Below are positions 6,911-22,087 of a DNA stretch of 64,000 bases, one piece after another. The position numbers were made by a program, and so were the translations under genes. Under the pieces are notes generated by a model. That model ran no database searches and was not told where the DNA came from. It saw only the letters and a list, made by a program, of their open reading frames with translations. Every line of letters starts with the position of its first letter. The first letter of the stretch is position 1. The DNA lies in NCBI GenBank assembly GCA_030427585.1, contig JAUIBW010000008.1:69831-133830 (forward strand). The letters run 5' to 3'. Source of the stretch: Bacteroidia bacterium (GTDB lineage: Bacteria > Bacteroidota > Bacteroidia > Flavobacteriales > Flavobacteriaceae).

Positions 6911-9730
6911 CTAAAATGTATAATTAAGGCTTAGACTTATCGTACTTCCTTTTTTATAAGAAAGTATTGTTTCTTCTACCTCATTAACTGGATTGTTATT
7001 AGTATCAAACCTGATTCCAGCTTGATTTTCTTGAGCTATTAATTGAGTTTGTTTAATTTTTGGATTTAGCAAGTTTCTTGCTGTTAACTTGACTTTGAAT
7101 TTGTCATTGATTTGTTTACTAAGAATAAGGTCCATTGTTACAAATCCATTTTCAATGATTTCTTCGTTATACAAAGTTTCTTTATTGGCAACATCATCAG
7201 GCGAACCTAACGCAAATATTCTATCTGAAGCATAGTTTCCTGTTAAGGTAGCGATGAATTCTTTTTCTTTTTGATTAGAATAGCTCAGAGACCCATTTAC
7301 AATCCAATCTGATGCGCCTTGTAAGCCAGATTCGGTTTTGTTTTTATATCTAAACTCTTCAAATTGCCCTGCATCTCTATCTTCTCCTTTAAGGTCTTGT
7401 GAATGCCACATTCGAGTAACATTAACATTTAAATTCAGGTTAGCTTTATCTTCGATTTCAACAAGATTAATGCGGCCTTCAAGTTCAACTCCATATATAT
7501 CAGCTTTTTCTGCTGTGTTAAAATAAGAGAACACTCCTGCTGCTCCTCTGGTTTGTGCCAGGTTAATTGGATCTTCTATTTTTTTATAAAAACCTGTTAA
7601 TGATATTAGCTCCTTAGATGTTGGGAAAAATTCCCATTTTAAGTCATAATTATAATTAGTTGAAGGTTTTAAATTAGGATTTCCTCGAGTGACCCTGCCT
7701 GTAGGAGAAACATATTCGAAAGGCGCTATTTCTTTAAATTCTGGTAATGTAAAGGTTTGACTAGCCGCTAGTCGAATATTGTGTTTTTCATTAACCTCGT
7801 ACTTAAGACTCATACTAGGTAATAGATTACTATATTCATTAAAAATGAAATTATCACTCCCAGAAAAGTTGGCCACGTTAAAGAAAGGTACATCTAATTG
7901 GTCTTCTTCATATCGAATACCTAGATTAGCAACTAATTTTTTAATTCGTATATCAAAATTAAGGAAGGCTGCTTGTTCTTCTAATAAAGCTTCATAAGTA
8001 TCATTCTGATCTCTAGGAATAAAAGTTCCATTATCTACATTTTGAAAATTCAAACCTTCATCCAGATTGTCAAAAGAATTAATAGACAAGCCTACACTAC
8101 TTCTAGAAAGTGCCAAACCATTAAATCTGGATTCAAAATCTCTTTCTTTTTTTCTATAATTGATTCCAATATCAAATTTTGCAGAATAGAATTCACTATC
8201 GGTCATTACCCTGTTATACTTAAGGAATCCATTTATTTCTTTATCTTTAATTTCTTGAGATGATTTTCGTTGCTGAAAACCTCCCGTATTACCAAACCTA
8301 ATATCATTTACTCCATAAATATTAAGTTCATTTCTAATACGATTAGGTTCGTCAGCATTTACCACATTATATCCTATACCCCAGTCTATTTCATCTTTTT
8401 CTGTAATACTATGATCACCGAATAATTGATTGATAAAAAGAGTAGTTTGTCTAAACAATTGATCTCTTACAAATTGAGATGCATTATCAGCAATTGGTGT
8501 TTCTTCAAAAATACCAGCTCTACCTCCTCGACCAAATTCATTAAGTTGATCTTCTCCTTTATTAATAAATAAAGAATTGAATTTCAACTTAGTGTTACTG
8601 CCTATCCTATATGCTAAATTTAGAAGACCTGTTGTATTGGTAGTACTTATAAAACGCTCGGCATCCGGAATGGTGTCATTAACAAAGTTTGCTCTGTATT
8701 CTTTAAATTCTCCAATCCTTTGTTGATGAGACTTTGAATATGATCCTGTAAAAAACACGGATAAATTATTCCCAAACACTTCTACTTTTTCTCCTGCTGT
8801 AACAGAAATACCAAAATTGGCCGGAGTATTTGATGTCTCTGGATTCCAGCTCTCTTGTGTTAGAGCTGTTTCCGTATTTAGGTTACTAGAATAAAATCCT
8901 AAAGTTGTATTATTAGTGTTTTGCGTACTCCTAAAATTGTTCCATGTATCACCATCGATAACATTAGTATTTACACCTCCACTTACACTTATAGTTAGTT
9001 CTCCATTCCCAGAATATTCCTTAGAGACTATATCAACATTTCCAGAAGCTTGATCCCCATAAAACAATGAAGAATATGTTTTACTTACTCCAATATTTTG
9101 AATAATATTTGCAGAAAATAAACCTAAATCTATGTTTTTTCTTTCTACATCTTCAGAAGGAACAGGTAATCCATTCATTGTTGTAGAAAGGTAGCGGTCT
9201 CCAAGACCTCTAATAAAAATATCTCCTGAGCCCTCTACTTTGTTAACTCCTGATATTTTTGCCGTAGCGGCAGCGGCATCAGATACTCCTTGTTTTGACA
9301 ATTGTTCTGCTCCAATACTTTCTTTAATTTGTACTGCTTGTTTCTGTTCTAAAAGCAACGCTTCTTCGCGTTCGCGATTAGTAACTACTTTTATCACAAC
9401 TTCTTCTAATGCTGCTGCAGTAGCTCCCATAGTAGCATCTACCACGGCTACTTTATCTGCTTCTACTACTACATTGGGTATTTCTACTGTTTGATACCCT
9501 GTAAAGCTAAATGATAGCGTATATGTCCCCACAGGAACTCCTGTAATCTCATATAATCCATCAAAATCTGTAGACGCTCCTTTAGCTGTTCCTCCTACAA
9601 TTACATTAGCAAAAGGAAGGGGTTGATTGTTTGATTCTTTATCTAATAATTTTCCGGCAATAGTCCCGGTTTCTTGTGCAAAAATGGCTCCTATAAAAAA
9701 TAGTGCCAATACTGTAAATGTTTGTCTCAT
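6911..9730 (-). CDS. TonB-dependent outer-membrane receptor with N-terminal carboxypeptidase-regulatory-like domain
   Basis: 939 residues. Signal peptide about 1-18; CarboxypepD_reg-like beta-sandwich about 22-100 (GTIAGKLLDKESNNQPLPFANV, FDGLYEI, GYQTVEI); plug domain about 130-235 (SKQGVSDAAAATAKISGVN, FIRGLGDRYLSTTMNGLPVPS); then a beta-barrel ending with the aromatic LSLNYTF. It is paralogous to the receptor at 11618-14428, with the same N-terminal architecture. It is first in a two-gene operon with the tandem beta-helix lipoprotein. No SusD neighbour is present, so this is not a classical glycan locus. A weak phased TAACA array lies at 10011-10037, implying a long (about 270 nt) leader if real. 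Confidence 0.92.
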   Translation of the reverse strand: MRQTFTVLALFFIGAIFAQETGTIAGKLLDKESNNQPLPFANVIVGGTAKGASTDFDGLYEITGVPVGTYTLSFSFTGYQTVEIPNVVVEADKVAVVDATMGATAAALEEVVIKVVTNREREEALLLEQKQAVQIKESIGAEQLSKQGVSDAAAATAKISGVNKVEGSGDIFIRGLGDRYLSTTMNGLPVPSEDVERKNIDLGLFSANIIQNIGVSKTYSSLFYGDQASGNVDIVSKEYSGNGELTISVSGGVNTNVIDGDTWNNFRSTQNTNNTTLGFYSSNLNTETALTQESWNPETSNTPANFGISVTAGEKVEVFGNNLSVFFTGSYSKSHQQRIGEFKEYRANFVNDTIPDAERFISTTNTTGLLNLAYRIGSNTKLKFNSLFINKGEDQLNEFGRGGRAGIFEETPIADNASQFVRDQLFRQTTLFINQLFGDHSITEKDEIDWGIGYNVVNADEPNRIRNELNIYGVNDIRFGNTGGFQQRKSSQEIKDKEINGFLKYNRVMTDSEFYSAKFDIGINYRKKERDFESRFNGLALSRSSVGLSINSFDNLDEGLNFQNVDNGTFIPRDQNDTYEALLEEQAAFLNFDIRIKKLVANLGIRYEEDQLDVPFFNVANFSGSDNFIFNEYSNLLPSMSLKYEVNEKHNIRLAASQTFTLPEFKEIAPFEYVSPTGRVTRGNPNLKPSTNYNYDLKWEFFPTSKELISLTGFYKKIEDPINLAQTRGAAGVFSYFNTAEKADIYGVELEGRINLVEIEDKANLNLNVNVTRMWHSQDLKGEDRDAGQFEEFRYKNKTESGLQGASDWIVNGSLSYSNQKEKEFIATLTGNYASDRIFALGSPDDVANKETLYNEEIIENGFVTMDLILSKQINDKFKVKLTARNLLNPKIKQTQLIAQENQAGIRFDTNNNPVNEVEETILSYKKGSTISLSLNYTF

Positions 9731-10010
9731 TATGTGTTTTCAAAATCTGATACAAATAAATACGGTTTTACAGTAATTAGCTTTACCCCACTATTATGGT
9801 TAGTTTAAGGGATTGTGATGTAGGAAAAATGAATAAAAAGGCGAAATCTGTAAGATTTTCAGGGAATTTTACGTCTAAAATTTCATACTATTAAATTCGC
9901 AATAAACAATTGAATTATAAGGTTTACCTATATCAATCGAGGATAGTTTATCTATACTGTTTTTTGGGTCTCGAATATCGACGGTTATACAAAATCTGTT
10001 TTTTACAAAT

Positions 10011-10037
10011 TATTAGAGAATTGTTATGAAGATGTTA
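10011..10037 (-). promoter_or_regulatory. Weak candidate Pho-type array (minus orientation)
   Basis: On the plus strand TATTA, TGTTA and TGTTA start at 10011, 10022 and 10033, exactly 11 bp apart. On the minus strand a TTTG core starts at 10009, 17 bp from the second TAACA, against 18 bp at the stronger sites. It could drive the 9730 receptor operon. Only two good units, so tentative. Confidence 0.35.
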
Positions 10038-10188
10038 AACCAGATAAATTCACAGAACCTGTCTTAACAATAAGATAAAATATGATACCAAAATATTGGA
10101 TAACAAGGTAAGTTTTCTTTATGTTTTTAATCCTTCAACTTGATTATTAATAATTTACAAATTATCTATTCTGAAATAAGCTAAAAAA

Positions 10189-10215
10189 AGAAGCCTGGCA
10201 ATTAGCCAAGCTTCT
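10189..10215 (-). terminator. Hairpin terminator of the 14428-10248 operon
   Basis: Arms 10189-10199 and 10205-10215 (AGAAGCCTGGC/GCCAAGCTTCT, one mismatch), followed in the minus direction by a T-run. It lies just beyond the lipoprotein stop. Confidence 0.7.
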
Positions 10216-10247
10216 ACAATTCAAATACTTAAATATGGGATATTATA

Positions 10248-11576
10248 TTATTGACGAGTCCAATCTGATGTCCAGTTATCACTCTCTTGTAATGCTCCTG
10301 CATAGTTAGCAGCATCAAAAAATGCTCCTAGTGTAGAAGGATCAAAATTATCTACGCCATCTACCGCAGTAGTATATGTATAAGTCCCTCTGAAACCTGT
10401 AATTTCAAAACCAGCTGGTACAGCGGTACCTGCACTATTAAAAGGAGCTCCAGAACCATCTACAGTAAAATTATTAAAGGTAGAAAAATCTGCAAGGTCA
10501 ACGGTTGCACCGCCATGATCTAAATCAAATGATTTTGCATTATCGATGATAGAATTTCTAACAATTACTTCGTTATTATTAAGGTTGGTTAATGTTTGAT
10601 CATCATCTACTTCAATTCCTTTTCCTGGGAAAGCTTTGATGATAGCATTATACATTTTTACTTTGGTTCCTGCTCTAAACTCAATTCCTTTATTTTCTCC
10701 ATCACCATCTTCTGCACCGATTAGCGTAATATTAGATAAGGTAGGATTAGAAAATGGTGCTGCATCTGGAGCAGAAGATAAATTATCTGCCTCAATTCCT
10801 TTATCTCCGGCTGCAGAAGTTTGTTGTGCAATCCAGAATTGTCCATTTCCAACCCAACCATCTGTCCAGTCAAAGGAATCATCTCCAGCACCAGTTACAA
10901 TAGCATACTTTAAGTTTACAGTTCCTCCAAAAAATTCTATTCCATCATCATTTCCATTAAAAGCCTGGATATACTCTAAAGTAGTTCCGTTACCCACACC
11001 ATATAATGAAAGTCCGTTATATTCTGCATCATCATTAATTTTTCCTCCTGTATACTCTAAACGTACATAACGTAATATTCCTGAGTTATCTGCCGGATCG
11101 GTACCTCCATAGGTAAGATTTGCAACTTCTGTAGTTGCTGTAGTACCTCTATTGATAGGGGCTTTACCAGCTAATAATAATCCTCCCCAATCTCCAGGAT
11201 TAGGAGTAGACTTATTAGAGGTAAATACAATAGGTTGTGCTGCAGTACCTTCTGCGATAATTTTTGCTCCTTGTTCTATAGCTAAATATGAGAATACTCC
11301 TCCTACATCACCTGCGATAATTTTTGTACCTGCTTCGATCGTTAATGTAACTCCATCTACCACCGATACACCTCCTCTTAGCTCGTATACCTCGCTTGAT
11401 TTTAATGTAGTATTTTGTGTAATCTGACCCTCTAATATTTCGGTTCCTGAAGTATCACCACCAGACCCCCCCTGGTTGATTGTAATATCCCCTATATTAT
11501 CTTCTTGTATGGTACAAGCACTAAATAAAATTGCTGTTCCGATTACTATTCCCGTAAGTAAATTTTTAGTTTTCAT
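10248..11576 (-). CDS. Single-copy beta-helix lipoprotein, partner of a TonB receptor
   Basis: 442 residues. Signal peptide with lipobox (AILFSACTIQED), then one copy of the beta-helix module found twice in the 4901-6871 protein: TLTIEAGTKIIAG, NPGDWGGLLLAGKAP, LTYGGTDPADNSGILRYVR, EYNGLSLYGVGNGT, NDDGIEFFGGTVNLKYA and DWTDGWVGNGQF. A further Asp/Asn-rich helical-turn region (about 270-400) and an aromatic-rich C-terminus follow. It lies 41 bp downstream of the paralogous TonB receptor. The conserved receptor-lipoprotein pairing suggests the two form one uptake unit, but no substrate can be read from sequence. Confidence 0.88.
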   Translation of the reverse strand: MKTKNLLTGIVIGTAILFSACTIQEDNIGDITINQGGSGGDTSGTEILEGQITQNTTLKSSEVYELRGGVSVVDGVTLTIEAGTKIIAGDVGGVFSYLAIEQGAKIIAEGTAAQPIVFTSNKSTPNPGDWGGLLLAGKAPINRGTTATTEVANLTYGGTDPADNSGILRYVRLEYTGGKINDDAEYNGLSLYGVGNGTTLEYIQAFNGNDDGIEFFGGTVNLKYAIVTGAGDDSFDWTDGWVGNGQFWIAQQTSAAGDKGIEADNLSSAPDAAPFSNPTLSNITLIGAEDGDGENKGIEFRAGTKVKMYNAIIKAFPGKGIEVDDDQTLTNLNNNEVIVRNSIIDNAKSFDLDHGGATVDLADFSTFNNFTVDGSGAPFNSAGTAVPAGFEITGFRGTYTYTTAVDGVDNFDPSTLGAFFDAANYAGALQESDNWTSDWTRQ

Positions 11577-11617
11577 TTTATATAATGATTAATTTTAGTT
11601 GTGTTTTCCGTTTATAA

Positions 11618-14428
11618 TTAAAGTTTAAAAGTAACTCCAAGGCTAAAGTTGATACCGTTATCGAATTTATAGGTGGTAAATTCCTGACCTAAGTCTTCTT
11701 GATCCTGGTATCGTTCTATTGATGGGTTTAATAAGTTTTTAGCTTTAAGGCTTATTTCTACATGCTTTCCAATCTCATCTTTGAAATTAAAATTTAGCAC
11801 TCCAAATCCTTTTTCAAAAATATCTCCTACTCCATTTCCACCGGCAGAGTATACTCTATCTCCAAAAATGTTAAAATCTAAAGCTGAAGTAATTTTGTGA
11901 TTGCCAAATTCTTTAGCATATACTACATCTGCATTTACAAGAAAAGGAGAAGCTCCTTGTAATTGCCTTTCTACATTAGTGGGTGCAATATTAGAACCAT
12001 TAAATGTGGTAATCGTTGGGTCAATCTCTACTTTTGTATACATTATTGTAGTATTAACGCCAAAGTTTAGGTTGTTCCAGATTGTTTCTTCTGTGTTAAA
12101 GAGATTACCCAGATTCTTTCTATATTCTAATTCTGCTCCAAAGATTATTGCATTATCAGAATTGATAAACGTATTTACATTTGAGGCCGATGCTACAAAC
12201 ACTTTTTCGATTGGGTTTTCGATATATTTACCAAATAGCGTAGCCGCTACCAATTCACCGGTCTGCTCAGGAAAGTGCTCCCATTTGATATCTACATTAT
12301 AGTTATCAGAATTACTTAGAATAGTATTTCCCAAAGTAGCTTCGGTAACATCTTCATCTAAGAAAGGTGCTATTTCTGTAAATTTTGGTAGTGTAACGGT
12401 CTTACTGGCTGCGAAACGAAGGTTTGATGTTGAATTTAATTCATACTTCAAGCTTATACTAGGTAGAATAAAAGTTTCATCAATTTTTCTGGTTCTAAAA
12501 GGAGATGTTTCTAAGTCTTGTTGTTCTCTATAGAATATATTTTGCTCAAACAATTCTGCACGAATACCTCCATTAAAGGTTAGTTTCTCGGTAAACGCAT
12601 ATTGCAAATTTGCATATCCTGCAATAGTTGATAAATCGGCCTCATAAATCCTTGTTGGATTAAGGTTTTCTAAAACAATGTATTCTCCATTAAGAAAATT
12701 AGTTTCATTTAATAATGCATCCGGATTATTAAAATCTACATTTTGGTTTACAAGGCTATTAAGGTTATAGTTTAATTGATTAGACTCAAAATCCCTATCT
12801 TTTGATCTTCCTGCCAATCCAAAAGTAAATTTGTTTTTAAAATTATCGTCTTCACCCTTTCCAAAATTAATGTCAAAATCAATATTTCCAGAATAATCAT
12901 TTTCATTTAGTTCCTGATAAAAACGTTGGTTATTTGCCAAATCCGGACTTGTTCGGTTTCCTAAAACAAGGTTTCCATTTTGTAATTCTGTAAACACCAA
13001 TTGACGTCTGTCGGGTATTAAGCCCTTTGCTTTATTATATGCAAATCCCCAATTTAACTGGTACTTTCTTTCGCTGAATCTGTGTTCTCCGGTAAGTTGT
13101 TGTGTAAACAGGTTATTTTGTTCGTAGGTTCCTCTTCTTAAACGAATACCTACATCTGTATCTTCACTACTTACACCATCTGTAAACTCTCTAAGTTCAT
13201 CTTTGGTATCATTAACAAACAAGGTAGTAGCAAGAATCTTATTGTTACTGTTCCATCGATACCCTATACTTCCTAATACTGTAGTATTAGTAAAATATTC
13301 GTATCGATCTACATTTTTAAAATTACCTATTCCAGTAATACTTTCTCCTTGAGAGTTAAAAGCGGCCTGGTTACCTCCCAAAGCGGTTCTGTGGTTTTGA
13401 TCAAATGATGCCGTAACCAATACATCTAATTTTTGATCTTCTGCAACTGTAAAGGTTTTACCGCCAGTTATACTCATACCTCCATCAGGGGCATTAAATC
13501 TTTTTACCGGATTAAAAGAAGTATCAAAAGGATAGTAATCTATTTCTGTACTATTATAATTGTAATTCGGAATATCTAAGAAAACAGGAACTCTTCTAGA
13601 TCCATCATCTAATCCCCATTCATCGTATTGCCCACCATTAAGTAAGAAAAAATCATTACTAACGGCATTAGAATTTACTCCCGAACTAAAACCAACTTCC
13701 AAAAAACCTTTTCCTGGTCGATCTTTGGTATCGATATTTACACTTGCTCCGGCAAAATCACCATATATATTAGGGGAATATGTTTTATAAATCCCTAAAT
13801 TCTCAACTATATCGGTCGGAAAAATCCCAAGATCAATAAGTTTTAATTTTGGGTTTAATGACGGGATAGGCAGCCCATTTAAATAGGCATTGTTATAACG
13901 ATCTCCTAATCCACGAACATATAGTTTATCACTCTGTCTAGAAATACCAGTTGCTTTAGTTAAACCTGTAGCAACATCACTCACTCCTTTTTTAGAAAGT
14001 TCTTGCGCTCCTATCTTTTGTTGAATAGTCACTGCATTTTTCTGTTCTAACAAAATAGCAGCTTCAGATTCTTTTTTGGTAGTCGTTTTAATTACAACCT
14101 CATCTAGTGCAGCTGCACTTGCCGCCATTGCAGTATTAACTGTAGTAGCTTCATTTGATTTTACGATTACATCTTTAATGTCTAAAGTTTCATACCCTAC
14201 AAAACTAAACTCTAGTACATATGTTCCTGGCTCTACGTTTTCAATAGTATATAAACCATCAAAATCTGTAGTTGTTCCTTTTGTTGTTCCTTTAATTAAT
14301 ACATTAGCAAAAGGTAAAGGTTGATTATTAGATTCCTTATCTAATAATGTTCCGGTAATCGAACCGGTTTCTTGCGCGAAGAGTATTCCTACAAAAAATA
14401 ATGTAAAAAGTGTAACAATTTTTCTCAT
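11618..14428 (-). CDS. TonB-dependent outer-membrane receptor, Pho-linked paralogue
   Basis: 936 residues. Signal peptide about 1-18 (FTLFFVGILFAQETG), CarboxypepD_reg-like domain about 22-100, plug about 130-235 (SKKGVSDVATGLTKATGI, YVRGLGDRYNNAYLNGLPIPS), barrel to the C-terminal LGVTFKL. The first 150 residues closely match the receptor at 6911-9730; the barrels are more diverged, so the two may import different ligands. Upstream is the best regulatory array of the window: six 11-bp-phased positions (14469-14528) and a GTTCTTTG -7-like element. This ties the operon to the adjacent phosphate genes. Confidence 0.92.
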   Translation of the reverse strand: MRKIVTLFTLFFVGILFAQETGSITGTLLDKESNNQPLPFANVLIKGTTKGTTTDFDGLYTIENVEPGTYVLEFSFVGYETLDIKDVIVKSNEATTVNTAMAASAAALDEVVIKTTTKKESEAAILLEQKNAVTIQQKIGAQELSKKGVSDVATGLTKATGISRQSDKLYVRGLGDRYNNAYLNGLPIPSLNPKLKLIDLGIFPTDIVENLGIYKTYSPNIYGDFAGASVNIDTKDRPGKGFLEVGFSSGVNSNAVSNDFFLLNGGQYDEWGLDDGSRRVPVFLDIPNYNYNSTEIDYYPFDTSFNPVKRFNAPDGGMSITGGKTFTVAEDQKLDVLVTASFDQNHRTALGGNQAAFNSQGESITGIGNFKNVDRYEYFTNTTVLGSIGYRWNSNNKILATTLFVNDTKDELREFTDGVSSEDTDVGIRLRRGTYEQNNLFTQQLTGEHRFSERKYQLNWGFAYNKAKGLIPDRRQLVFTELQNGNLVLGNRTSPDLANNQRFYQELNENDYSGNIDFDINFGKGEDDNFKNKFTFGLAGRSKDRDFESNQLNYNLNSLVNQNVDFNNPDALLNETNFLNGEYIVLENLNPTRIYEADLSTIAGYANLQYAFTEKLTFNGGIRAELFEQNIFYREQQDLETSPFRTRKIDETFILPSISLKYELNSTSNLRFAASKTVTLPKFTEIAPFLDEDVTEATLGNTILSNSDNYNVDIKWEHFPEQTGELVAATLFGKYIENPIEKVFVASASNVNTFINSDNAIIFGAELEYRKNLGNLFNTEETIWNNLNFGVNTTIMYTKVEIDPTITTFNGSNIAPTNVERQLQGASPFLVNADVVYAKEFGNHKITSALDFNIFGDRVYSAGGNGVGDIFEKGFGVLNFNFKDEIGKHVEISLKAKNLLNPSIERYQDQEDLGQEFTTYKFDNGINFSLGVTFKL

Positions 14429-14760
14429 TTAACTTGTTCTGAAATTCCCGGCAAAGAACGACAGGCAGTGTTAAATGTGTGTTATTCAAAAATTAATTAT
14501 GTGTCATATTAATGTTAGAAAATTGTTATCTATCATTGTTTATAGAATGTTTTCTCAATATTAATCCAGTGTTAGATCTAACCATAAACTACTGTAAATG
14601 AGAAATTAATCCTGATAAAAATCTTCTTAAAAAAGATCGGTTTTATTGTTAAGAAAACATACAACAAATCGGTAATGTAAAAAAAAATTAAACCTTTCTT
14701 AGATTGAAAAATCAAATTACAAAAGTGATGTCATTCTTTTTTGACAGTTTTGGAAAACAA
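14429..14760. other. Intergenic promoter region of the TonB operon
   Basis: No gene seen. The promoter-proximal half carries the phased TAACA array and a TTCTTTGC element. The distal half is AT-rich and unremarkable. Confidence 0.6.
14452..14528 (-). promoter_or_regulatory. Putative Pho box array plus -7 element of the TonB operon
   Basis: On the plus strand TGTTA, TGTTA, AATTA, TGTCA, TGTTA and TGTTA start at 14469, 14480, 14491, 14502, 14513 and 14524: six positions exactly 11 bp apart, five of them matching TGT(T/C)A. In the direction of transcription the TAACA nearest the gene is followed 18 bp later by the TTTG of GTTCTTTGC. The porin promoter has the same 18-bp distance and the same GTTCTTTGC. 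Eleven bp is the period of known Pho boxes. PhoB binding is inference. Confidence 0.7.
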
Positions 14761-14787
14761 AAAAGACCTCCTATCCGGAAGTCTTTT
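14761..14787 (-). terminator. Hairpin terminator of the MORN-like gene
   Basis: Arms 14761-14771 and 14777-14787 (AAAAGACCTCC/GGAAGTCTTTT, one mismatch), just past the stop of the 14811-15170 gene. Confidence 0.65.
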
Positions 14788-14810
14788 CTGTTTATTTTTT
14801 GTAGTAGAAT

Positions 14811-15170
14811 CTAATTCTTATAATTCACAACTACATTGTCTTTACCAGACCAAGTTGTTACATCAGCAATTTGATTTTTATCATAATTTACTTCGGATAA
14901 TTTATCTGCATTCCAGAAAAACCATTTCCCAGTTTTTACTCCATTATCATATTGCCCCATGGCAATTTTCTTTCCGGTAGCATCATACGATTTCCATTCT
15001 CCATGAAGCTTACCTTCTTTATTATAGAAACCCTGCTGTCTTACTGTTCCATCTTCAAAATAAAATGTACCCTTAATCTTATCTCCTTGCTTTTCAAAAG
15101 TCGGTTTTACATCCTGAGCCATTGCTGTTGCAGAAAATAAAATGGCCATTGCTACTATTATCTTTTTCAT
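14811..15170 (-). CDS. Small secreted MORN-like (YwqK-type) repeat protein
   Basis: 119 residues. Clear signal peptide (MKKIIVAMAILFSATAMAQ), then MORN-like units of the form G-x-F-Y-x-x-G-T-V-R-Q-Q-G-F-Y, G-K-L-H-G-E-W-K-S-Y, G-x-x-x-A-x-G-Q-Y and G-V-K-T-G-K-W-F-F-W. Such proteins are often labelled YwqK-family antitoxin, but there is no toxin next to this one. It is probably periplasmic or outer-membrane associated. An 11-bp-phased array lies 50-98 bp upstream of its ATG, in the orientation opposite to its transcription, so Pho control is possible but not secure. Confidence 0.85.
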   Translation of the reverse strand: MKKIIVAMAILFSATAMAQDVKPTFEKQGDKIKGTFYFEDGTVRQQGFYNKEGKLHGEWKSYDATGKKIAMGQYDNGVKTGKWFFWNADKLSEVNYDKNQIADVTTWSGKDNVVVNYKN

Positions 15171-15219
15171 GATTTTAAATATTTTAGATTATTTGGGATG
15201 TCGACTTATATTATAAAAG

Positions 15220-15268
15220 TAATATTTATTTTACATTTAAACAACATTTTAGTAACATTAAATTAACA
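15220..15268 (+). promoter_or_regulatory. Phased TAACA array between the MORN-like gene and the chrA remnant
   Basis: TAATA, TTACA, CAACA, TAACA and TAACA start at 15220, 15231, 15242, 15253 and 15264, all 11 bp apart. The orientation points toward the chrA pseudogene, about 170 bp away; no TTTG element stands at +18 or +29. It may instead serve the divergent gene at 15170, as the reversed array upstream of phoB would. Confidence 0.5.
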
Positions 15269-15437
15269 TTAATCTCGCAATTACCTATATATCATGTTTT
15301 TATATTATTATAAATATTTTTACGTAATGTTCAAAATCATCAATTCTACCTTACTTTTATTATCATGACCAATATTATATTTATACTTTTGATCACGTTA
15401 AATTATCTGTGTCATTTTATATATCTATTATATTTGA

Positions 15438-16174
15438 ATGAATAACAAGAAAAGACTTATTGAGGTTGCTATTCTTTTTTTAAGCTAGGTTGTTTTGTTT
15501 TTGGTGACCCGGCAGCACATATCTCCATGATGAAAAACCAAGTAGTTGATAAAAAAATGGATAGATAAGCAACATTTTCTGGATCTTATCGGAGCCACCA
15601 ACTTAATTCCTGGGCCCAATTCTACTGATATGATTATGCATTGTGGTCATGAGCGTACAGGGATCGCTGGTCTTTTATTACCAAAGCCTGTTTTATTTTT
15701 CCTGAGGTAATCACCACAGAAACCTTAATTTGGTTTTATACTTCTTATGAATAACTTAGCTTCTCGAGGTAACTCCTTCTATTTCTAGTATCAAATCTGC
15801 CGTACCCACTATTATTTTATCAGCCACAATTATTGGTTATCAATTAGCTGGATTTTGAGGGGCTGTAGCGGCTACATTGAGAATCTTTTTCCATTCTTTT
15901 TGTATTTGTATTACTTCTTAATCCATTAGTCCCTAAAATGAGAAAATCAAAAATATTTAGTTATTTTCTCGATACTGTCAATATTGCCGCAGTTGCTATC
16001 ATGTTATCGGTATCTTTTGTAATGTCTTTAGATACCTTAATCGACTGGAAAGCAATACTTATTGCTTTGATGGGTATTATTATAATTGGATTTAAAAAAG
16101 TAAATCCCATATGGATTGTACCAGGAGGATCACTTTTGGGATACGTGTTAAGTCTTATATCGAGACACTTTTAA
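15438..16174 (+). pseudogene. chrA: Degraded chromate transporter (ChrA family)
   Basis: Reading across frames gives a ChrA-like protein: an N-terminal FLKLGCFVFGDPAAHISMM, then ATNLIPGPNSTDMIMHCGHERTGIAGL, a TIIGYQLAGF block, and a C-terminal piece IAAVAIMLSVSFVMSLDTL with PGGSLLGYVLSL. The 15438 ATG frame hits a stop after 16 codons, inside a run of T, and several more frameshifts and in-frame stops follow. Only the last 78 codons (15938-16174) stay open. ChrA proteins exchange chromate or sulfate across the inner membrane; this copy cannot make a full product. It sits inside the phosphate island and ends just before a second phased array. Confidence 0.85.
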
Positions 16175-16226
16175 CGATAGCTTAAAGTTTTGGTAACATA
16201 AAAACTCACTAAATAAAATATTTTTG
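16172..16226 (+). promoter_or_regulatory. Putative Pho box and promoter of a small RNA
   Basis: TAACG, TAAAG and TAACA start at 16172, 16183 and 16194, 11 bp apart. A consensus TAnnTTTG element, TATTTTTG, follows at 16219-16226, with TTTG exactly 29 bp after the last TAACA start, the same distance as at the PiT promoter. No start codon with a plausible frame follows before the terminator. Confidence 0.5.
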
Positions 16227-16231
16227 GCGAG

Positions 16232-16327
16232 TCGCAAGACAAATGTAGTTTCAAAAAATCATATTAGTTTTTGTCGACTTAGATTTTTGAAATGCAGGGC
16301 TAACCTAAAACGGTTAGCCTTTTTTTT
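16232..16327 (+). ncRNA. Candidate Pho-controlled small RNA, about 95 nt
   Basis: The start is estimated 6 nt after the -7 element and the end is the T-run of a strong terminator. A stem can form between TTTCAAAAAATC (from about 16250) and GATTTTTGAAA (16282-16292), followed by the terminator hairpin GGCTAACC/GGTTAGCC. I do not recognise a known RNA family. Alternatively the hairpin only terminates transcription of the old chrA gene. Confidence 0.4.
16298..16327 (+). terminator. Rho-independent terminator
   Basis: Arms 16298-16305 and 16312-16319 (GGCTAACC/GGTTAGCC), loop TAAAAC, then eight T. Textbook form. Confidence 0.88.
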
Positions 16328-16368
16328 GCATAAATACTAAAAAAAAACATTTTAATATAATTATTATA

Positions 16369-16412
16369 AAACATTAAGTTAACATTAAGTTAACATTGAT
16401 ACAGGTTCTTTG
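16369..16412 (+). promoter_or_regulatory. Putative Pho box and promoter of the porin gene
   Basis: AAACA, TAACA and TAACA start at 16369, 16380 and 16391, with near-identical 11-bp units AACATTAAGTT. GTTCTTTGC follows, its TTTG starting at 16409: 18 bp after the last TAACA start and 29 bp after the previous one. This matches the TonB promoter at 14452-14528. Confidence 0.7.
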
Positions 16413-16437
16413 CAAGCGACAAAAACTAGTATCGATT

Positions 16438-17637
16438 ATGAAATTAAAGAATACACTAACGGCGTTAGTTCTATTTACCCTTTGTTTTGTAAATGCTCAG
16501 GAAACTACTGAAACTAAATTTGGAAAAGGAATCTTAAATGTTATTGCCAAAGATAGCTCCTGGAGCATAAAATTTGCAACCAGGTTTCAATTACTTTCTA
16601 CTACCGGTTGGGATATTAACGATAATAATTATAGCAAACCAGAAACCAACTTCCTCGTAAGAAGAGCGCGTTTAAAATTTAGTGGTTTTGCTTATAGCCC
16701 AAAAATTAAATATAAAATAGAATTGGGGTTATCTAATAGGGATATTTCTGGTGCTTCAGAATTCACTAGCAATGCTCCACGTTATATTCTAGATGCTGTT
16801 ATAAAGTGGAATTTCTACAAAAACTTTACACTTTGGGCAGGACAAACAAAATTGCCTGGCAATGTAGAACGTGTTATTTCTTCGGCAAACTTACAACTAG
16901 TAGATCGTTCAAGATTAAATAGTCGTTTTAATATAGATCGTGATTTAGGAATACAGTTACGACATCACTTTAAATTATCAGATAAATTTATCGTTAGAGA
17001 AGCTTTCGCAGTTTCCCAGGGTGAAGGAAGAAATATTACCAGTGGAAATTTAGGTGGCCATCAATATACAGGAAGATTAGAATTATTACCTTTTGGGAAA
17101 TTTAAAAGTAAAGGAGATTATAAAGGAGGGGATCTTAAGAGAGAACAAACTCCTAAGTTAATGCTGGCGGCAACTTATGATTTTAATGCAGATGCCGTAA
17201 AAAACAGAAGTAATCAAGGTTCTTATATGCAAACCAGTACTGGTTTTTATGAGACAAATATTTCTACCATATTTGTAGATGCTATGTTTAAATATAAAGG
17301 TTTTTCTTTTATGGGAGAATTTGCAGATAGAGAAGCGGATAAAGCAATTGCAGTAGAAGAAGATGGAACGCCAACCGGAGATATAGTTCAGGTGGGTAAT
17401 GCGTTAAATCTTCAAGCTGGATATTTGTTTAAAAGTAATTGGGAAATCGCAGGACGTTATACCAACCTTAATTATGATGCAATTGTTGGAAAAAGTCTTG
17501 AAGAACAATATACCCTTGGGGTATCAAAATATGTTGCTGGTCATAACTTAAAAGTTCAATCTGATATAAGTTATACTACTGAATACGGTAGTGGCAGTGG
17601 GTTAATGTATAGATTACAATTTGATATACATTTCTAA
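16438..17637 (+). CDS. Phosphate-selective porin (OprP/OprO family)
   Basis: 399 residues from the ATG at 16438. An upstream in-frame start would overlap the promoter and lacks a signal peptide at its N-terminus, so it was not used. Signal peptide MKLKNTLTALVLFTLCFVNAQ, then a beta-barrel with alternating strands, including FLVRRARLKFSGFAYSP, LDAVIKWNFYKNFTLWAGQTKLPG and RDLGIQLRHHF. This R-R-A-R and W-A-G-Q-x-K-x-P pattern is typical of the porin O/P family, which lets phosphate or polyphosphate through the outer membrane. It lies 77 bp before the PiT transporter gene and shares its type of promoter array, which fits phosphate uptake. Anion selectivity itself cannot be shown from sequence. 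Confidence 0.88.
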   Translation: MKLKNTLTALVLFTLCFVNAQETTETKFGKGILNVIAKDSSWSIKFATRFQLLSTTGWDINDNNYSKPETNFLVRRARLKFSGFAYSPKIKYKIELGLSNRDISGASEFTSNAPRYILDAVIKWNFYKNFTLWAGQTKLPGNVERVISSANLQLVDRSRLNSRFNIDRDLGIQLRHHFKLSDKFIVREAFAVSQGEGRNITSGNLGGHQYTGRLELLPFGKFKSKGDYKGGDLKREQTPKLMLAATYDFNADAVKNRSNQGSYMQTSTGFYETNISTIFVDAMFKYKGFSFMGEFADREADKAIAVEEDGTPTGDIVQVGNALNLQAGYLFKSNWEIAGRYTNLNYDAIVGKSLEEQYTLGVSKYVAGHNLKVQSDISYTTEYGSGSGLMYRLQFDIHF

Positions 17638-17653
17638 ATCACAGGCCAATACA

Positions 17654-17697
17654 TAACAGTTTGGTAACATTAAGCTGAGAATTGATTATAATATTTG
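17654..17697 (+). promoter_or_regulatory. Putative Pho box and promoter of the PiT gene
   Basis: TAACA starts at 17654 and 17665, 11 bp apart (units TAACAGTTTGG and TAACATTAAGC). TATAATATTTGC follows, its TTTG at 17694, 29 bp after the second TAACA start. The gene therefore seems to have its own promoter rather than relying on porin read-through. Confidence 0.6.
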
Positions 17698-17714
17698 CAC
17701 CTTAAACAAAAAGT

Positions 17715-20105
17715 ATGGATAATATTTATTTATTAATGGTAGTCGCATTAGCTATATTAGCGATTGCCGATCTTGTTGTGGGAGTTAGCAATGATGCTGT
17801 TAACTTCTTAAATTCTGCTATTGGTTCTAAAGCAGTTTCTTTTAGAACAATTATGATTGTTGCCAGTATTGGTATTGCAGCTGGAGCTGTTTTCTCTAGT
17901 GGATTAATGGAAGTAGCAAGAAAAGGAATTTTTAATCCTGGTGAATTCTATTTTGATGAAATCATGATCATTTTTATGGCGGTTATGATAACCGACATTC
18001 TCCTTCTCGACTTTTTTAATACGTTGGGGATGCCAACTTCGACAACAGTATCTATCGTATTTAACCTTTTGGGAGCAGCAGTATCTATCGCATTAATTAA
18101 AATTGGAGCAGACCAAGGGTTAACTTTTTCTGATTTAGGAAACTACATTAATACCAAGACAGCAACTAAAATTATTAGTGGTATTTTGCTCTCGGTAGTG
18201 ATAGCATTCTCGGTAGGTGCCATTGTGCAATTTATAACTCGTTTATTACTATCCTATAATTTTCAAAAGAAAGCTAAATGGGTTGGTGCTTTATTTGGAG
18301 GAATTGCATTAACTGCATTGTTGTATTTCATTTTCATGAAAGGAATTAAAGGAACCAATTACGCCAAAGCTATAGTTGATATTGTATACAATGGCGGCCC
18401 TGAAGGGTTATTAGATTGGGCCAATACTTATTTTGGTAGTGCATATGAAAATGTAAAGGAACTGGCAAAAGCTCAGAAAGACCTTTTCAAGATAGATGGT
18501 GATGCAGGAACAATCAAAATGACTTTAAGAGGATTTTTAGAAACTTATGTATTTCAGATCGTAGCTGCCGGTTTTGCATTGTGGTCAGTATTATCGTATA
18601 TACTTATTAATTTCTTTAAAGTAAATATTTATAAGCTTATTATTATTGTTGGTACATTCGGATTGGCATTAGCTTTTTCGGGTAATGATTTGGTAAATTT
18701 TATTGGTGTACCAATAGCGGGTTGGCAATCTTATGAAGCCTGGGTAGCTTCTGGGGTTCCTGCTGCAGAGTTTTCTATGGATGTTCTAGCCAAAAAAGTA
18801 GATACTCCAACCTTACTATTATTGGGTTCAGGAATAATAATGGTGCTTACATTATGGTTTTCGAAAAAAGCTCGATATGTTGCCGATACCGAAATTAACC
18901 TTTCTAGAGAAGGGGAAGCTAAAGAACGTTTTAAACCAAATTTTCTATCAAGAGGTGTTGTAAGAGGTACCGTTTTGATATCTCAGGGACTAGGTATTAT
19001 TACTCCAAAACCTGCAATGGAATTCATAGAAAAAAGATTTACCAAACCTGTCATAGACTTGCCAAAGAATAAAAGCTACGAAATGCCTGCATTCGATATG
19101 GTAAGAGCTGCTGTAAATCTTATGGTTGCAGGAGTTTTAATTTCTATTGCAACTTCTATGGGATTACCACTTTCTACAACCTATGTTACTTTTATGGTAG
19201 CAATGGGTACCTCATTAGCAGATAGAGCATGGGGAACAGAGAGTGCCGTATATCGTGTAGCAGGAGTACTTAATGTAATTGGTGGATGGTTCTTTACTGC
19301 TATAAGCGCATTTGTAGCAGCCGCAACGGTAGCATTTTTAATCAATCTAGGAGGGCCAATAATGATTGCCGTACTGTTACTCGTTGCTGTATTGCTTTTG
19401 GCAAGAAATACTATTAATTATAGAAAGAGAGTTAAAGCAGAGAAAGCAGAAGATAGTCTTAAAAATTCTGAGAGCAGCTCGGTTCAAGGAGTTATCGAAG
19501 AAAGTGCAGATAATATCAAATCCTTTGTAAACAGAGGAAACAAAATTTACACAAGCACAATAGAAAGCCTTGTGAAATATGATTTAATCGCCTTAAAGAA
19601 AAGTAAAAAAGGAATTGCTAAACTAGATGAAGAAGTTGAAGAACTAAGAGATAATATTTTCTACTTTATCAAAAATCTAGATGAATCTAGTGTGGGTGCC
19701 AGTAATTTTTATATTAATATTTTAGGGTATCTACAAGATATGTCTCAATCTTTGGAATATATCACCAAAGCAAGTCACAAACATGTAAACAACAATCATA
19801 AAAAACTTCGATTTAATCAGATTAAAGATTTAAAAGAAATCGAAGAACAATTAAATGAGTTGTTTGGACAAATCAAAAAAGCATTTAGTGATAGAGATTT
19901 TGATCATATTGATACCATTATTAATGAAAAACAAGAACTCTTTAATAAGGTAAATCAAAAAATTGATAAACAAGTTTCAAGAACAAGAACTGAAGAAAAT
20001 AGCCCAAAAAATACAACCTTGTATTTTGGGTTACTATTAGAAACTAAAGATCTTATTACAGCAACAATGAACTTACTAGAAACCTATAGAGAAAATAAAT
20101 CGTAA
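17715..20105 (+). CDS. pit: PiT-family inorganic phosphate transporter with PhoU-like C-terminal domain
   Basis: 796 residues. Both PiT signature regions are visible: DLVVGVSNDAVNFLNSAIGSKA near residue 20 and FSGNDLVNFIGVPIAGW near residue 334, with N-D-x-V-N-F conserved in each. Hydrophobic segments fill residues 1-570. From about 600 the protein is soluble and helical (NIKSFVNRGNKIYTSTIES ... LLETKDLITATMNLLETY), resembling a PhoU or DUF47 bundle. Bacterial PiT proteins are usually 400-550 residues; fused PhoU-like tails occur in Bacteroidota. It should import phosphate with a proton or sodium gradient, the tail probably acting as a regulator. It lies between the porin and phoBR. Confidence 0.92.
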   Translation: MDNIYLLMVVALAILAIADLVVGVSNDAVNFLNSAIGSKAVSFRTIMIVASIGIAAGAVFSSGLMEVARKGIFNPGEFYFDEIMIIFMAVMITDILLLDFFNTLGMPTSTTVSIVFNLLGAAVSIALIKIGADQGLTFSDLGNYINTKTATKIISGILLSVVIAFSVGAIVQFITRLLLSYNFQKKAKWVGALFGGIALTALLYFIFMKGIKGTNYAKAIVDIVYNGGPEGLLDWANTYFGSAYENVKELAKAQKDLFKIDGDAGTIKMTLRGFLETYVFQIVAAGFALWSVLSYILINFFKVNIYKLIIIVGTFGLALAFSGNDLVNFIGVPIAGWQSYEAWVASGVPAAEFSMDVLAKKVDTPTLLLLGSGIIMVLTLWFSKKARYVADTEINLSREGEAKERFKPNFLSRGVVRGTVLISQGLGIITPKPAMEFIEKRFTKPVIDLPKNKSYEMPAFDMVRAAVNLMVAGVLISIATSMGLPLSTTYVTFMVAMGTSLADRAWGTESAVYRVAGVLNVIGGWFFTAISAFVAAATVAFLINLGGPIMIAVLLLVAVLLLARNTINYRKRVKAEKAEDSLKNSESSSVQGVIEESADNIKSFVNRGNKIYTSTIESLVKYDLIALKKSKKGIAKLDEEVEELRDNIFYFIKNLDESSVGASNFYINILGYLQDMSQSLEYITKASHKHVNNNHKKLRFNQIKDLKEIEEQLNELFGQIKKAFSDRDFDHIDTIINEKQELFNKVNQKIDKQVSRTRTEENSPKNTTLYFGLLLETKDLITATMNLLETYRENKS

Positions 20106-20122
20106 ATCACATCTCTTAATAA

Positions 20123-20168
20123 AACTATAAAAAGGCTTAGTATAATAATATTAAGCCTTTTTATAGTT
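20123..20168 (+). terminator. Terminator after the PiT gene
   Basis: A 17-bp perfect stem (arms 20123-20139 and 20152-20168, core AAAAAGGCTTA/TAAGCCTTTTT) with a 12-nt loop. It isolates phoB from upstream transcription, so phoBR needs its own promoter. Confidence 0.8.
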
Positions 20169-20202
20169 AATTTTCAGCATGTGAATTTTATATAAAAAAT
20201 CA

Positions 20203-20251
20203 CGTTAAGCAAATGTTATCTACTCATACCATTAATGTTAGCTTATCGTTA
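20203..20251. promoter_or_regulatory. Phased TGTTA array upstream of phoBR
   Basis: CGTTA, TGTTA, TGTTA and CGTTA start at 20203, 20214, 20236 and 20247: spacings of 11, 22 and 11 bp, so four of five phased positions are filled. The array lies 74-122 bp before the phoB ATG and is inverted relative to the porin and PiT sites. It could mediate autoregulation of phoBR. Confidence 0.5.
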
Positions 20252-20324
20252 CCAAATCTATATAAATATGTATACTTCGTATTAAGTGGTATATTTATCC
20301 AATGTTATGTAATGCTATACTATA

Positions 20325-21008
20325 ATGAACAAAAAAGATATTACGATACTATTAGTTGATGACGAACCTGATATTTTAGAAATTGTCGGGTATAACCTTA
20401 CTGCAGAAGGATATACAGTAATAACTGCAGAAAATGGTGTTGAAGCTGTAAAAGCTGCAAAAAAGAAAAAACCACATCTAATTATTCTTGATGTAATGAT
20501 GCCAGAGATGGATGGTATCGAAGCCTGTGAACATATAAGAAAGTTACCAGACTTGCAAAATACAATCATTACCTTTCTTACAGCACGGGGTGAAGATTAT
20601 TCGCAAGTTGCTGGATTTGATGCAGGAGCAGATGATTATATCACAAAGCCAATTCGACCAAAAGTTTTGGTAAGTAAAGTAAAAGCCCTATTAAGAAGAC
20701 TTAAAGAAGAAGAGTCTTCAGACAATGTGGTTAAAATAGGAAATTTAGTCATTAACAGAGATGAATACAAAATTGTTAAAGACAAAAAAGAAATTGTATT
20801 GCCAAGAAAAGAATTCGAATTACTATCTTTATTGGCCTCTAAGCCCGGCAAGGTTTTTAAGCGAGAAGATATTCTTGACAAGGTTTGGGGTAATGAGGTC
20901 ATTGTAGGTGGTCGTACAATTGATGTGCATATTAGAAAATTAAGAGAAAAAATCGGCGATAATAGTTTTAAAACTATTAAAGGAGTAGGATATAAGTTTG
21001 TAGTTTAA
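20325..21008 (+). CDS. phoB: PhoB-like response regulator
   Basis: 227 residues. Receiver domain about 5-120 with acidic pocket D12-D13, phosphoacceptor D56 (LIILDVMMPEMDG), T87 region (TFLTARGE) and lysine in DYITKPIRP. A winged-helix OmpR/PhoB effector domain spans about 132-227 (PRKEFELLSLLASKPGKVFKREDIL, GGRTIDVHIRKLREKIG, IKGVGYKFV). It overlaps the next gene's ATG by one base, so the two proteins are made from one message. The adjacent PiT and porin genes support PhoB identity rather than another OmpR-type regulator. The 11-bp repeats in this island are the natural candidate binding sites. Confidence 0.9.
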   Translation: MNKKDITILLVDDEPDILEIVGYNLTAEGYTVITAENGVEAVKAAKKKKPHLIILDVMMPEMDGIEACEHIRKLPDLQNTIITFLTARGEDYSQVAGFDAGADDYITKPIRPKVLVSKVKALLRRLKEEESSDNVVKIGNLVINRDEYKIVKDKKEIVLPRKEFELLSLLASKPGKVFKREDILDKVWGNEVIVGGRTIDVHIRKLREKIGDNSFKTIKGVGYKFVV

Positions 21009-22087
21009 TGGCAGAAAACTTTAAAAAGTCGTATAGATTTGCATATCTATCTTCTTTATATATAACCGTATTATTAACGCTCGCATTGAGCGTTTTTTTA
21101 TACACTCAATCCCTGTTTAATCCTTTTTTTATATTGGGTTTTACACTAGGGTGTTATTTAATTTGTTTCCTAATTATTCAATATAGAGTAGAAAAGTTTA
21201 TTTATCGTAGAGTACGCAAAATCTATGATGATATAGAAATGTTAGAAGTAGATACCATTGGAGGAAATCCGGTTACTACAGATATGAGAACTCTTATCAA
21301 AGAAGTTGAAAAATTTGCTCAACAAAGAAAAACAGAGATCGAAACCCTAAAAATTAGAGAAGCGTATCGTAAAGAATTTATGGGTAACGTTTCTCATGAG
21401 TTGAAAACACCCCTATTTACTGTTCAAGGATATATTCTTACTCTCCTCGATGGAGCAATGGATGATCCCGAAATTCTAAACAAATATTTAAATCGCGCAA
21501 ACAAAGGAGTTGAACGCCTAATTTATATTGTAAATGATCTGGACATGATTACTAAACTTGAAGTAGGTGATCTTAATCTTAATTATACTAATTTTGATAT
21601 TGTAGAATTAGTACAAAGTGTGTTTGATTTATATGAAATGAAAGCTGCAAAAAAGAATATTGCGCTTACATTTGATATGAATTATGAAGAACCTATACTT
21701 GTACATGCCGATAAAGAACGTATACAACAAGTACTTTCTAATTTGATTGTAAATTCAATAAAATACGGAAAAGAAGATGGTACTACAGAAGTAAGCATCG
21801 AAGATTTGATCCGCAATAAAACTATTATTAGAATTACTGATAACGGTGAAGGAATTGCACAAGCGCATATCCCACGATTGTTTGAGCGTTTTTATCGTGT
21901 AGATAAAAGCGGGTCGCGTAAAGAAGGTGGATCTGGTCTTGGGTTAGCTATTGTTAAACATATTATCGAGGCACATCATGAGCGAATCTATGTAGAAAGC
22001 GATTATCGAGTGGGAAGTGAATTTTCATTTACTTTGGAAAAAGTGAAAAAGTTCCCTATAATCAATGTCGGTACTAAAACTACTTAG
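21008..22087 (+). CDS. phoR: PhoR-like sensor histidine kinase
   Basis: 359 residues. Two transmembrane helices (about 13-31 and 38-58) with almost no periplasmic loop, a short linker without an evident PAS domain, a HisKA domain with H130 (FMGNVSHELKTPLFTVQGY), and a HATPase domain with N box (NLIVNSIKYG), G1 (ITDNGEGI), F (LFERFYRVD) and G2 (GGSGLGLAIVKHI). The small periplasmic part fits PhoR-type kinases that sense through the transport machinery. It overlaps phoB by one base, and its last 63 bp overlap the convergent glycosyltransferase gene. Confidence 0.9.
   Translation: MAENFKKSYRFAYLSSLYITVLLTLALSVFLYTQSLFNPFFILGFTLGCYLICFLIIQYRVEKFIYRRVRKIYDDIEMLEVDTIGGNPVTTDMRTLIKEVEKFAQQRKTEIETLKIREAYRKEFMGNVSHELKTPLFTVQGYILTLLDGAMDDPEILNKYLNRANKGVERLIYIVNDLDMITKLEVGDLNLNYTNFDIVELVQSVFDLYEMKAAKKNIALTFDMNYEEPILVHADKERIQQVLSNLIVNSIKYGKEDGTTEVSIEDLIRNKTIIRITDNGEGIAQAHIPRLFERFYRVDKSGSRKEGGSGLGLAIVKHIIEAHHERIYVESDYRVGSEFSFTLEKVKKFPIINVGTKTT

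Follow-up and report, generated by a model that had tools for sequence, protein, structure and literature searches.

The PhoP box of Bacillus subtilis is composed of TTAACA-like direct repeats that display TAACA on the coding strand. In Escherichia coli, the Pho box consists of two 11-nt direct repeats with CTGTCAT as their most conserved part (PMC4415409). Among the Bacteroidota, direct binding of PhoB to the pstC promoter region was demonstrated for Bacteroides fragilis by EMSA with a 512-bp fragment (PMC3547664); the terms "binding site", "consensus" and "direct repeat" are absent from the part of that text covered here, so that no B. fragilis box sequence was seen. In Flavobacterium johnsoniae, the PhoBR cluster PUSIV comprises genes for a TonB receptor, an FII lipoprotein, PhoBR, OprP and a glycosyltransferase (PMC8115612). 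For phosphate depletion, Table 1 of that study lists, with FC taken as log2, values of 8.02 for the TonB receptor gene Fjoh_0545, 9.91 for the FII lipoprotein gene Fjoh_0546, 9.22 for the phytase-linked TonB gene Fjoh_1368 and 12.50 for the PhoX gene Fjoh_2478; the study also gives 3.06 for phoB and 7.59 for a CARDB lipoprotein, while OprP was not induced (-1.3), and its set of depletion-responsive transcripts with a log2FC above 4 numbers 95 (PMC8115612). The words "pho box", "motif" and "promoter" do not appear in the portion of its main text considered, and no promoter motif is analysed there. Putative Pho boxes have also been computed near plcP in marine bacteria, with Bacteroidetes named as plcP carriers (PMC4796936). 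Overall, no sequence of a Bacteroidota PhoB box was found in the open-access literature searched.

The DNA analysed here is a stretch of 64,000 nucleotides, referred to as the window, from a genome of 5.08 Mb, the closest named relatives of which, as judged by this locus, are Aquimarina species. It harbors a phosphate cluster that matches PUSIV, as far as described in the part of the source considered, by gene family and order (PMC8115612). Throughout, "counterpart" of an F. johnsoniae gene denotes the same family and the same neighbourhood or order, with relatives standing in for the F. johnsoniae sequence. Promoters were compared using a soft score that combines a TAnnTTTG element with TAACA units at 18 + 11n; in each of 14 promoter sets, the offset was varied from 13 to 23 and the period from 8 to 15. 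TAnnTTTG is the consensus of the Bacteroidota -7 element. The following features were identified (window positions; scores are those of the grid):

6911..9730, minus strand: TonB2, a second TonB-dependent receptor (PF00593)
9972..10037, minus strand: distal TonB2 array with TAACA 10037, TAACA 10026, TAATA 10015 and TTCG 9975 (score 20.5)
10248..11576, minus strand: 442-aa lipoprotein-like protein, 41 bp behind TonB1
11618..14428, minus strand: TonB1, a 936-aa TonB-dependent receptor (Pfam PF13715/PF07715/PF00593)
14452..14459, minus strand: predicted -7 element GTTCTTTG (TAnnTTTG type) of the TonB1 promoter and anchor of the grid, based on sequence and promoter sets
14469..14528, minus strand: six-slot 11-bp array of the TonB1 operon (score 33.6, the window maximum)
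14811..15170, minus strand: 119-aa MORN_2-like protein (PF07661, 29.4 bits, just under the cut-off of 29.6)
15214..15268, minus strand: array of the MORN-like gene in opposite polarity, with TGTTA 15268, TGTTA 15257, TGTTG 15246, TGTAA 15235 and TTTA 15217 (+18)
16369..16412, plus strand: porin promoter array from sequence and window scan, with AAACA 16369, TAACA 16380, TAACA 16391 and TTTG 16409
16438..17637, plus strand: phosphate-selective porin O/P (PF07396), with ATG at 16438
17654..17697, plus strand: PHO4 promoter array with TAACA 17654, TAACA 17665 and TTTG 17694 (+29 from the last TAACA)
17715..20105, plus strand: PHO4-family phosphate transporter of 796 aa (PF01384)
20203..20279, plus strand: phoB upstream array with CGTTA 20203, TGTTA 20214, TGTTA 20236, CGTTA 20247 and a weak TTCG anchor at 20276 (score 23.8)
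20325..21008, plus strand: PhoB response regulator of the OmpR/PhoB family (best NCBIfam model TIGR02154)
21008..22087, plus strand: PhoR-type sensor kinase (PF00512, PF02518; NCBIfam PnpS/PhoR best, below its cut-off)

TonB1 is 34-38% identical to genes that adjoin phoB in loci of the Flavobacterium type (41% for L130) and, by its position, would be the counterpart of Fjoh_0545. The 442-aa protein had no match in Pfam or NCBIfam; in L122-L125 and L132, matches of 36-44% directly follow the TonB gene, which suggests that it belongs to the FII type (Fjoh_0546). One of these loci, L125, is labelled as a Rhizobium MAG and harbors a flavobacterial-type TonB-PhoB cluster with a PhoB that is 78% identical; it is probably a mislabelled bin. 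For the porin, the longer reading from a TTG start is probably wrong. A search for PstC in the own genome yielded one weak match (E 3.1e-18), and phosphate uptake by this organism may depend on PHO4 and outer-membrane systems. A MauG gene adjoins the PhoX gene Fjoh_2478, an arrangement also present in L148. The stretch 15490-16190, located between the porin and the MORN-like gene, looks broken and appears to resemble a chromate-transporter gene; a similar-looking open reading frame is present near the same place in L128. A further grid site with a score of 19.4 (position 16223) lies between this chromate-transporter-like remnant and the porin.

On the forward strand, the TonB1 array reads TGTTA (14469), TGTTA (14480), AATTA (14491), TGTCA (14502), TGTTA (14513) and TGTTA (14524), so the exact 11-bp step from start to start that the sequence-only reading had described holds from the first to the last position. 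Read in the direction of the gene, all on the minus strand, the slots are:

14473-14469, minus strand: TAACA, slot -18
14484-14480, minus strand: TAACA, slot -29
14495-14491, minus strand: TAATT, slot -40
14506-14502, minus strand: TGACA, slot -51
14517-14513, minus strand: TAACA, slot -62
14528-14524, minus strand: TAACA, slot -73

Within GTTCTTTGC, TTTG (T at 14455) lies 18 bp downstream of the T of TAACA (14473) on the minus strand, and the same distance separates 16391 from 16409 at the porin, a parallel that had been drawn correctly beforehand, as had the distance to phoB of about 6 kb (5.9 kb from the phoB start to the TonB1 start). The fit of five of the six slots to TGT(T/C)A was also borne out: in the 382-bp intergenic region, five matches share one 11-bp grid, and among 20,000 dinucleotide shuffles the maximum was three per grid, reached by nine shuffles, with none showing five. 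The other periods, 8-10 and 12-15, gave one. The array is thus real, and its origin by chance is excluded.

For conservation analysis, 42 named loci were fetched, from which, with the window included, an Aquimarina set of 28 unique promoter sequences (30 with duplicates) was obtained. TAACA occupied slot -18 in 27 of these 28, slot -29 in 24, slot -62 in 25 and slot -73 in 26. Slot -51 was variable (TCATA in six, TGACA in five, TGATA in four, and others). The mean information amounted to 1.8-2.0 bits in five slots, 1.2 bits in slot -51 and 0.8-1.5 bits in the spacers; all slots except -51 are strongly conserved across the Aquimarina promoters. AATTA, previously set apart as the one position that does not fit, indeed lies outside TGT(T/C)A, but it is not a failed unit, since TAATT was near-invariant in slot -40 (26/28). 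In the Flavobacterium loci L120-L124, where TonB1 is divergent from the adjoining phoB, the same six-slot frame is filled differently, with TAACA at -73, TAATC at -62, TAACA at -40 and -29, TTACA at -18, and TTTG at +18.

The combination of offset 18 and period 11 scored best in 11 of the 14 promoter sets, and the TAACA units follow an 11-bp grid in fixed register with the predicted -7 element, TTTG starting 18 + 11n bp after TAACA. Sets peaking there were TonB1 (30 sequences), other TonB (4, weak), Flavobacterium-type TonB1 (9), porin (18), PHO4a with porin (18), PHO4b without porin (13), TonB2 (17, weak), Flavobacterium PhoX (6), a beta-helix protein (12), phytase-TonB (19) and one further TonB gene. 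For the Flavobacterium PhoX, phytase-TonB and TonB1 sets, the F. johnsoniae counterparts are among the genes published as induced by phosphate depletion. No such peak was seen for the small gene and phoB when scanned in TAACA polarity, nor for 23 control-family promoters or 44 other promoters of the window. Since the rule came from TonB1 and the porin, neither of these tests it independently; offset and period were taken from the sequence-only reading, and the weights of the generic score were fixed after several promoters had been inspected. A first anchor trained on GTTCTTTGC was replaced by the generic TAnnTTTG anchor, the signal having been absent from the PHO4b, beta-helix and phytase-TonB sets. 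The use of a sequence model to search whole genomes was abandoned because the aligner shifted promoters by one 11-bp unit relative to each other.

In regard to composition, the TonB1 set holds 30 of 43 sequences (42 loci and the window); nine went to the Flavobacterium-type set, which contains a Rhizobium-labelled record and an uncultured Bacteroidetes, and four were scored separately. The Flavobacterium PhoX set consists of 6 of 14 loci, chosen as the F. johnsoniae-like type and with L149 omitted; L140, a PhoX locus outside this set, scored 19.9. Of 22 phytase-TonB loci found, 20 regions were fetched and 19 make up the set; the region left out, L294, scored 15.5. The control family comprises 23 beta-helix regions (L213-L235) first fetched as putative FIII, an assignment that was rejected, as they form a different beta-helix family without arrays. 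The beta-helix QQQPKG set contains 12 of 17 fetched regions (L236-L252) and is biased because it was picked after the upstream regions had been read. Members of this QQQPKGI...NWMNNWTNF beta-helix-like family from the Flavobacterium group (L236, L239-L241, L243-L250) carry strong grid arrays (-51, -40, -18), and the family is predicted from these arrays to be a new member of the phosphate regulon.

Among 336 other upstream regions of the fetched loci, 22 scored at least 17, and 21 of these belong to counterparts of phosphate-cluster genes. Ten were alternative starts of promoters already counted, and 11 more preceded one TonB receptor gene, seven lipoprotein-like genes directly behind TonB genes, two porin genes and one PhoX gene; FII similarity was detected in five of the seven lipoprotein-like genes, and one of the two porins was checked by Pfam. 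The last of the 22 resembles a chromate transporter. Two Flavobacterium porins scored 19.9 and two others 13.0. Orthologues exceeded the 99% shuffle level in 18/18 cases for the porin and in 17/18 for PHO4. In Aquimarina loci lacking the porin (e.g., L096, L102 and L104), PHO4 has a different promoter (TAACAtttcaaTAACA...TAACAttttTG) in which the 11-bp register is kept.

For 31 orthologues of the MORN-like gene, the best score fell at offset 18 and period 11 when the units were read in opposite polarity and TTT(G/A) was accepted as the anchor, a choice made after seeing that promoter. Upstream of phoB, 32 orthologues also revealed units of opposite polarity with a common period of 11 and no single best offset, so phoB autoregulation may differ. 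The distal array of TonB2 lies about 245-310 bp upstream of the gene, and a similar sequence was recognized by eye in L091-L095. Its proximal promoter has weak grid units only, with 17 orthologues best at 18/11 and a median score of 13.7. In the region 9730-10040, TonB2 appears to have two promoters, the distal TAACA array and a proximal, highly conserved ACTGTAAAACCGTATTTATTTG.

Scanning both strands of the window in both polarities placed the eight top sites all within 9975-20276, the 10-kb phosphate cluster; among them, site 16431 re-uses the porin array and site 16223 has no gene assigned to it. Eight sites scored at least 18 at offset 18, compared to 0-4 at ten other offsets. One correction to the sequence-only reading concerns phased TAACA. 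The bare pair TAACA-N6-TAACA showed no genome-wide enrichment (38 matches in the own genome, compared to 44 with the reversed control) and was rejected as a regulon finder; specificity was obtained only when it was locked to TTTG at +18 or +29. Six of the 38 matches lie within 7.6 kb of the cluster (binomial ~1e-7, the region having been picked after seeing the matches), and TTTG was found at +18 or +29 in 4 of the 30 matches examined, three in this cluster and one in L020. Across 52 genomes, TAACAN6TAACAN{8,30}CTTTG (TTTG at +14 to +36) yielded 65 matches versus 57 for the control, with TTTG exactly at +18 in 35 of the 65 and at most six matches at every other offset. The +29 pattern resulted in 50 matches in 47 genomes versus 18 for the control, and 36 of the 50 correspond, by likeness of the matches, to one of two PHO4 promoter sequences. 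A pattern of slots -51/-40/-18 was matched twice across 47 Aquimarina genomes (control 0); this layout is thus uncommon in Aquimarina. Finally, TWACA-N6-TWACA-N13-TTTG matched three times in the own genome, twice in this cluster (control 0), and four times versus six for the control in four genomes reached from Flavobacterium loci, where three of the four matches are the TonB1 promoter.

A test on Aquimarina PhoX promoters with preset parameters had a mixed outcome. The large PhoX type revealed no array, with 0/8 above the 95% shuffle level (the start of L373 is misplaced). Of the F. johnsoniae-type PhoX promoters, 9/15 exceeded this level, with offset 19 (12.8) better than 18 (12.4). The ten pst promoters of family f29, which we guess to be Prevotella-like, were off the grid and displayed a single conserved TAACA, again best at offset 19 (10.9 vs. 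8.9 at 18). At pst loci of other Bacteroidota outside this family, 6/27 had a site of at least 18 at offset 18, compared to 0-2 loci at other offsets. Support for the rule, as read from these promoter comparisons, is good in flavobacteria and suggestive outside them, and the rule is absent from some groups.

PhoB of the window scored 217 bits against TIGR02154, the top of all NCBIfam models, under the cut-off of 296, and shares 36% identity with E. coli PhoB. The start of its recognition helix (RTIDVHIRKLR, RTVDVHIRRLR in E. coli) is identical at 9 of 11 positions, and both changes are conservative. Its best full-length relatives with solved structures are MtrA and RegX3, ahead of E. coli PhoB. 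The arrays of TonB1, porin and PHO4 display TAACA on the coding strand, while the E. coli phoB leader has CTGTCAT; coding-strand CTGTCAT units as in the E. coli-type box were not found here, the units being TGTTA. Of the features that define a Pho box more generally, those found were at least two 11-bp direct-repeat units, a position upstream of phosphate-acquisition genes (porin, PHO4, PhoX, phytase-TonB and lipoprotein promoters) and a fixed core-promoter spacing, which in 11 of 14 sets was 18 + 11n relative to the predicted -7 element. Such a box would also be bound by phosphorylated PhoB and confer phoB-dependent induction at low phosphate; the observations bearing on these two features are the recognition-helix similarity and the induced F. 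johnsoniae counterparts, respectively. The array thus matches the testable sequence features of a Pho box and departs from the E. coli consensus and polarity.

The likeness to the E. coli Pho box concerns the 11-bp direct repeats, the phosphate genes, the nearby phoBR, the similar recognition helix and, by prediction, a downstream unit near the -35/-33 region. It differs in having TGTTA instead of TGTCA, up to six slots, a reversed polarity in front of TonB1, porin and PHO4, and a lock to a TAnnTTTG -7 element in place of a sigma-70 -10 element. With the B. subtilis PhoP box, it shares coding-strand TAACA, 11-bp repeats and several consecutive units, whereas phylum, promoter type and gene set are different. 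Direct binding of a phosphate promoter region by a PhoB of the same phylum links it to the B. fragilis PhoB regulon, as far as described in the part of the source considered (PMC3547664). The plcP work likewise deals with boxes computed for phosphorus-stress genes, in marine bacteria; unlike here, the part of that source considered gives no motif and no statement on whether a Bacteroidetes promoter was marked (PMC4796936).

We regard it as highly probable, from sequence comparison, that the TonB1 array is a Pho box for PhoB that would switch on the TonB1-lipoprotein operon at low phosphate. This interpretation, already put forward as a candidate, is supported by slot conservation and the common register at the porin, PHO4, PhoX, phytase-TonB and lipoprotein promoters, as well as by the E. 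coli-like recognition helix and the induction of the F. johnsoniae cluster as reported in the part of that study considered (PMC8115612). Binding by another OmpR-family response regulator instead of PhoB is improbable. Since direct repeats of this length (about 11 bp) are recognized by OmpR-family proteins in general, envelope genes, phosphate transporters among them, might be under the control of a paralogue; PhoB ranks top yet below its model cut-off with MtrA and RegX3 as its best solved relatives, and arrays also precede TonB2 and the MORN-like gene, which have no obvious phosphate role. However, phoBR sits inside the cluster, strong arrays precede phosphate porin, phosphate transporter, PhoX and phytase operons, several counterparts of which are induced by phosphate depletion, and a single phosphate-linked regulator would account for the strong-array genes.

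A/T-rich motifs phased at 11 bp can bend DNA, and the units here combine A/T richness with a fixed register to the -7 element, so that the array might represent promoter architecture, i.e., a periodic curved or UP-like A/T-rich stretch serving RNA polymerase or nucleoid proteins without a specific regulator. The near-invariant C of TAACA at four slots makes this very improbable, as does the lack of the phase in the 44 window and 23 control promoters, by which the phase is not a general promoter feature here. Chance, low complexity or a recent tandem duplication of an 11-bp unit has a practically negligible probability: the sequence is A/T-rich, TAACA is common and the bare pair shows no genome-wide excess, but no shuffle placed five matches on one grid, the spacers differ between conserved units, and the same register recurs in Flavobacterium with different slots filled.

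Under the preferred Pho box reading, phosphorylated PhoB would fill six consecutive 11-bp slots as head-to-tail dimers on one helix face and, under phosphate scarcity, recruit RNA polymerase to the GTTCTTTGC promoter that serves the TonB1-lipoprotein operon. The binding protein would be the window's own PhoB, units -18 and -29 may substitute for a missing -33 element, the upstream slots -62 and -73 may contribute a cooperating dimer, and TAATT at -40 could be a weak or linker slot. The array is most likely a flavobacterial Pho box of a stricter form than described before, in which six slots at 11-bp steps form a rail tied to the predicted -7 element. More tentatively, and with somewhat less than an even chance of being right, PhoB of the flavobacterial branch might occupy a maximum of six helical slots in fixed register with the -7 element, in one polarity or the other, and the filling pattern (0,1,4,5 in Aquimarina; 0,3,4,5 in Flavobacterium) would determine how strongly and in which order the individual phosphate genes are induced. 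If true, such a slot-filling code would make up for the missing -33 element and account for the large, tight induction published for F. johnsoniae. A box with fixed spacing would allow a testable regulon map to be derived from published transcriptomes and predicts new phosphate genes, such as those for the QQQPKG beta-helix-like proteins, and the array would provide a concrete case of an activator acting with a predicted -7 element of the TAnnTTTG type.
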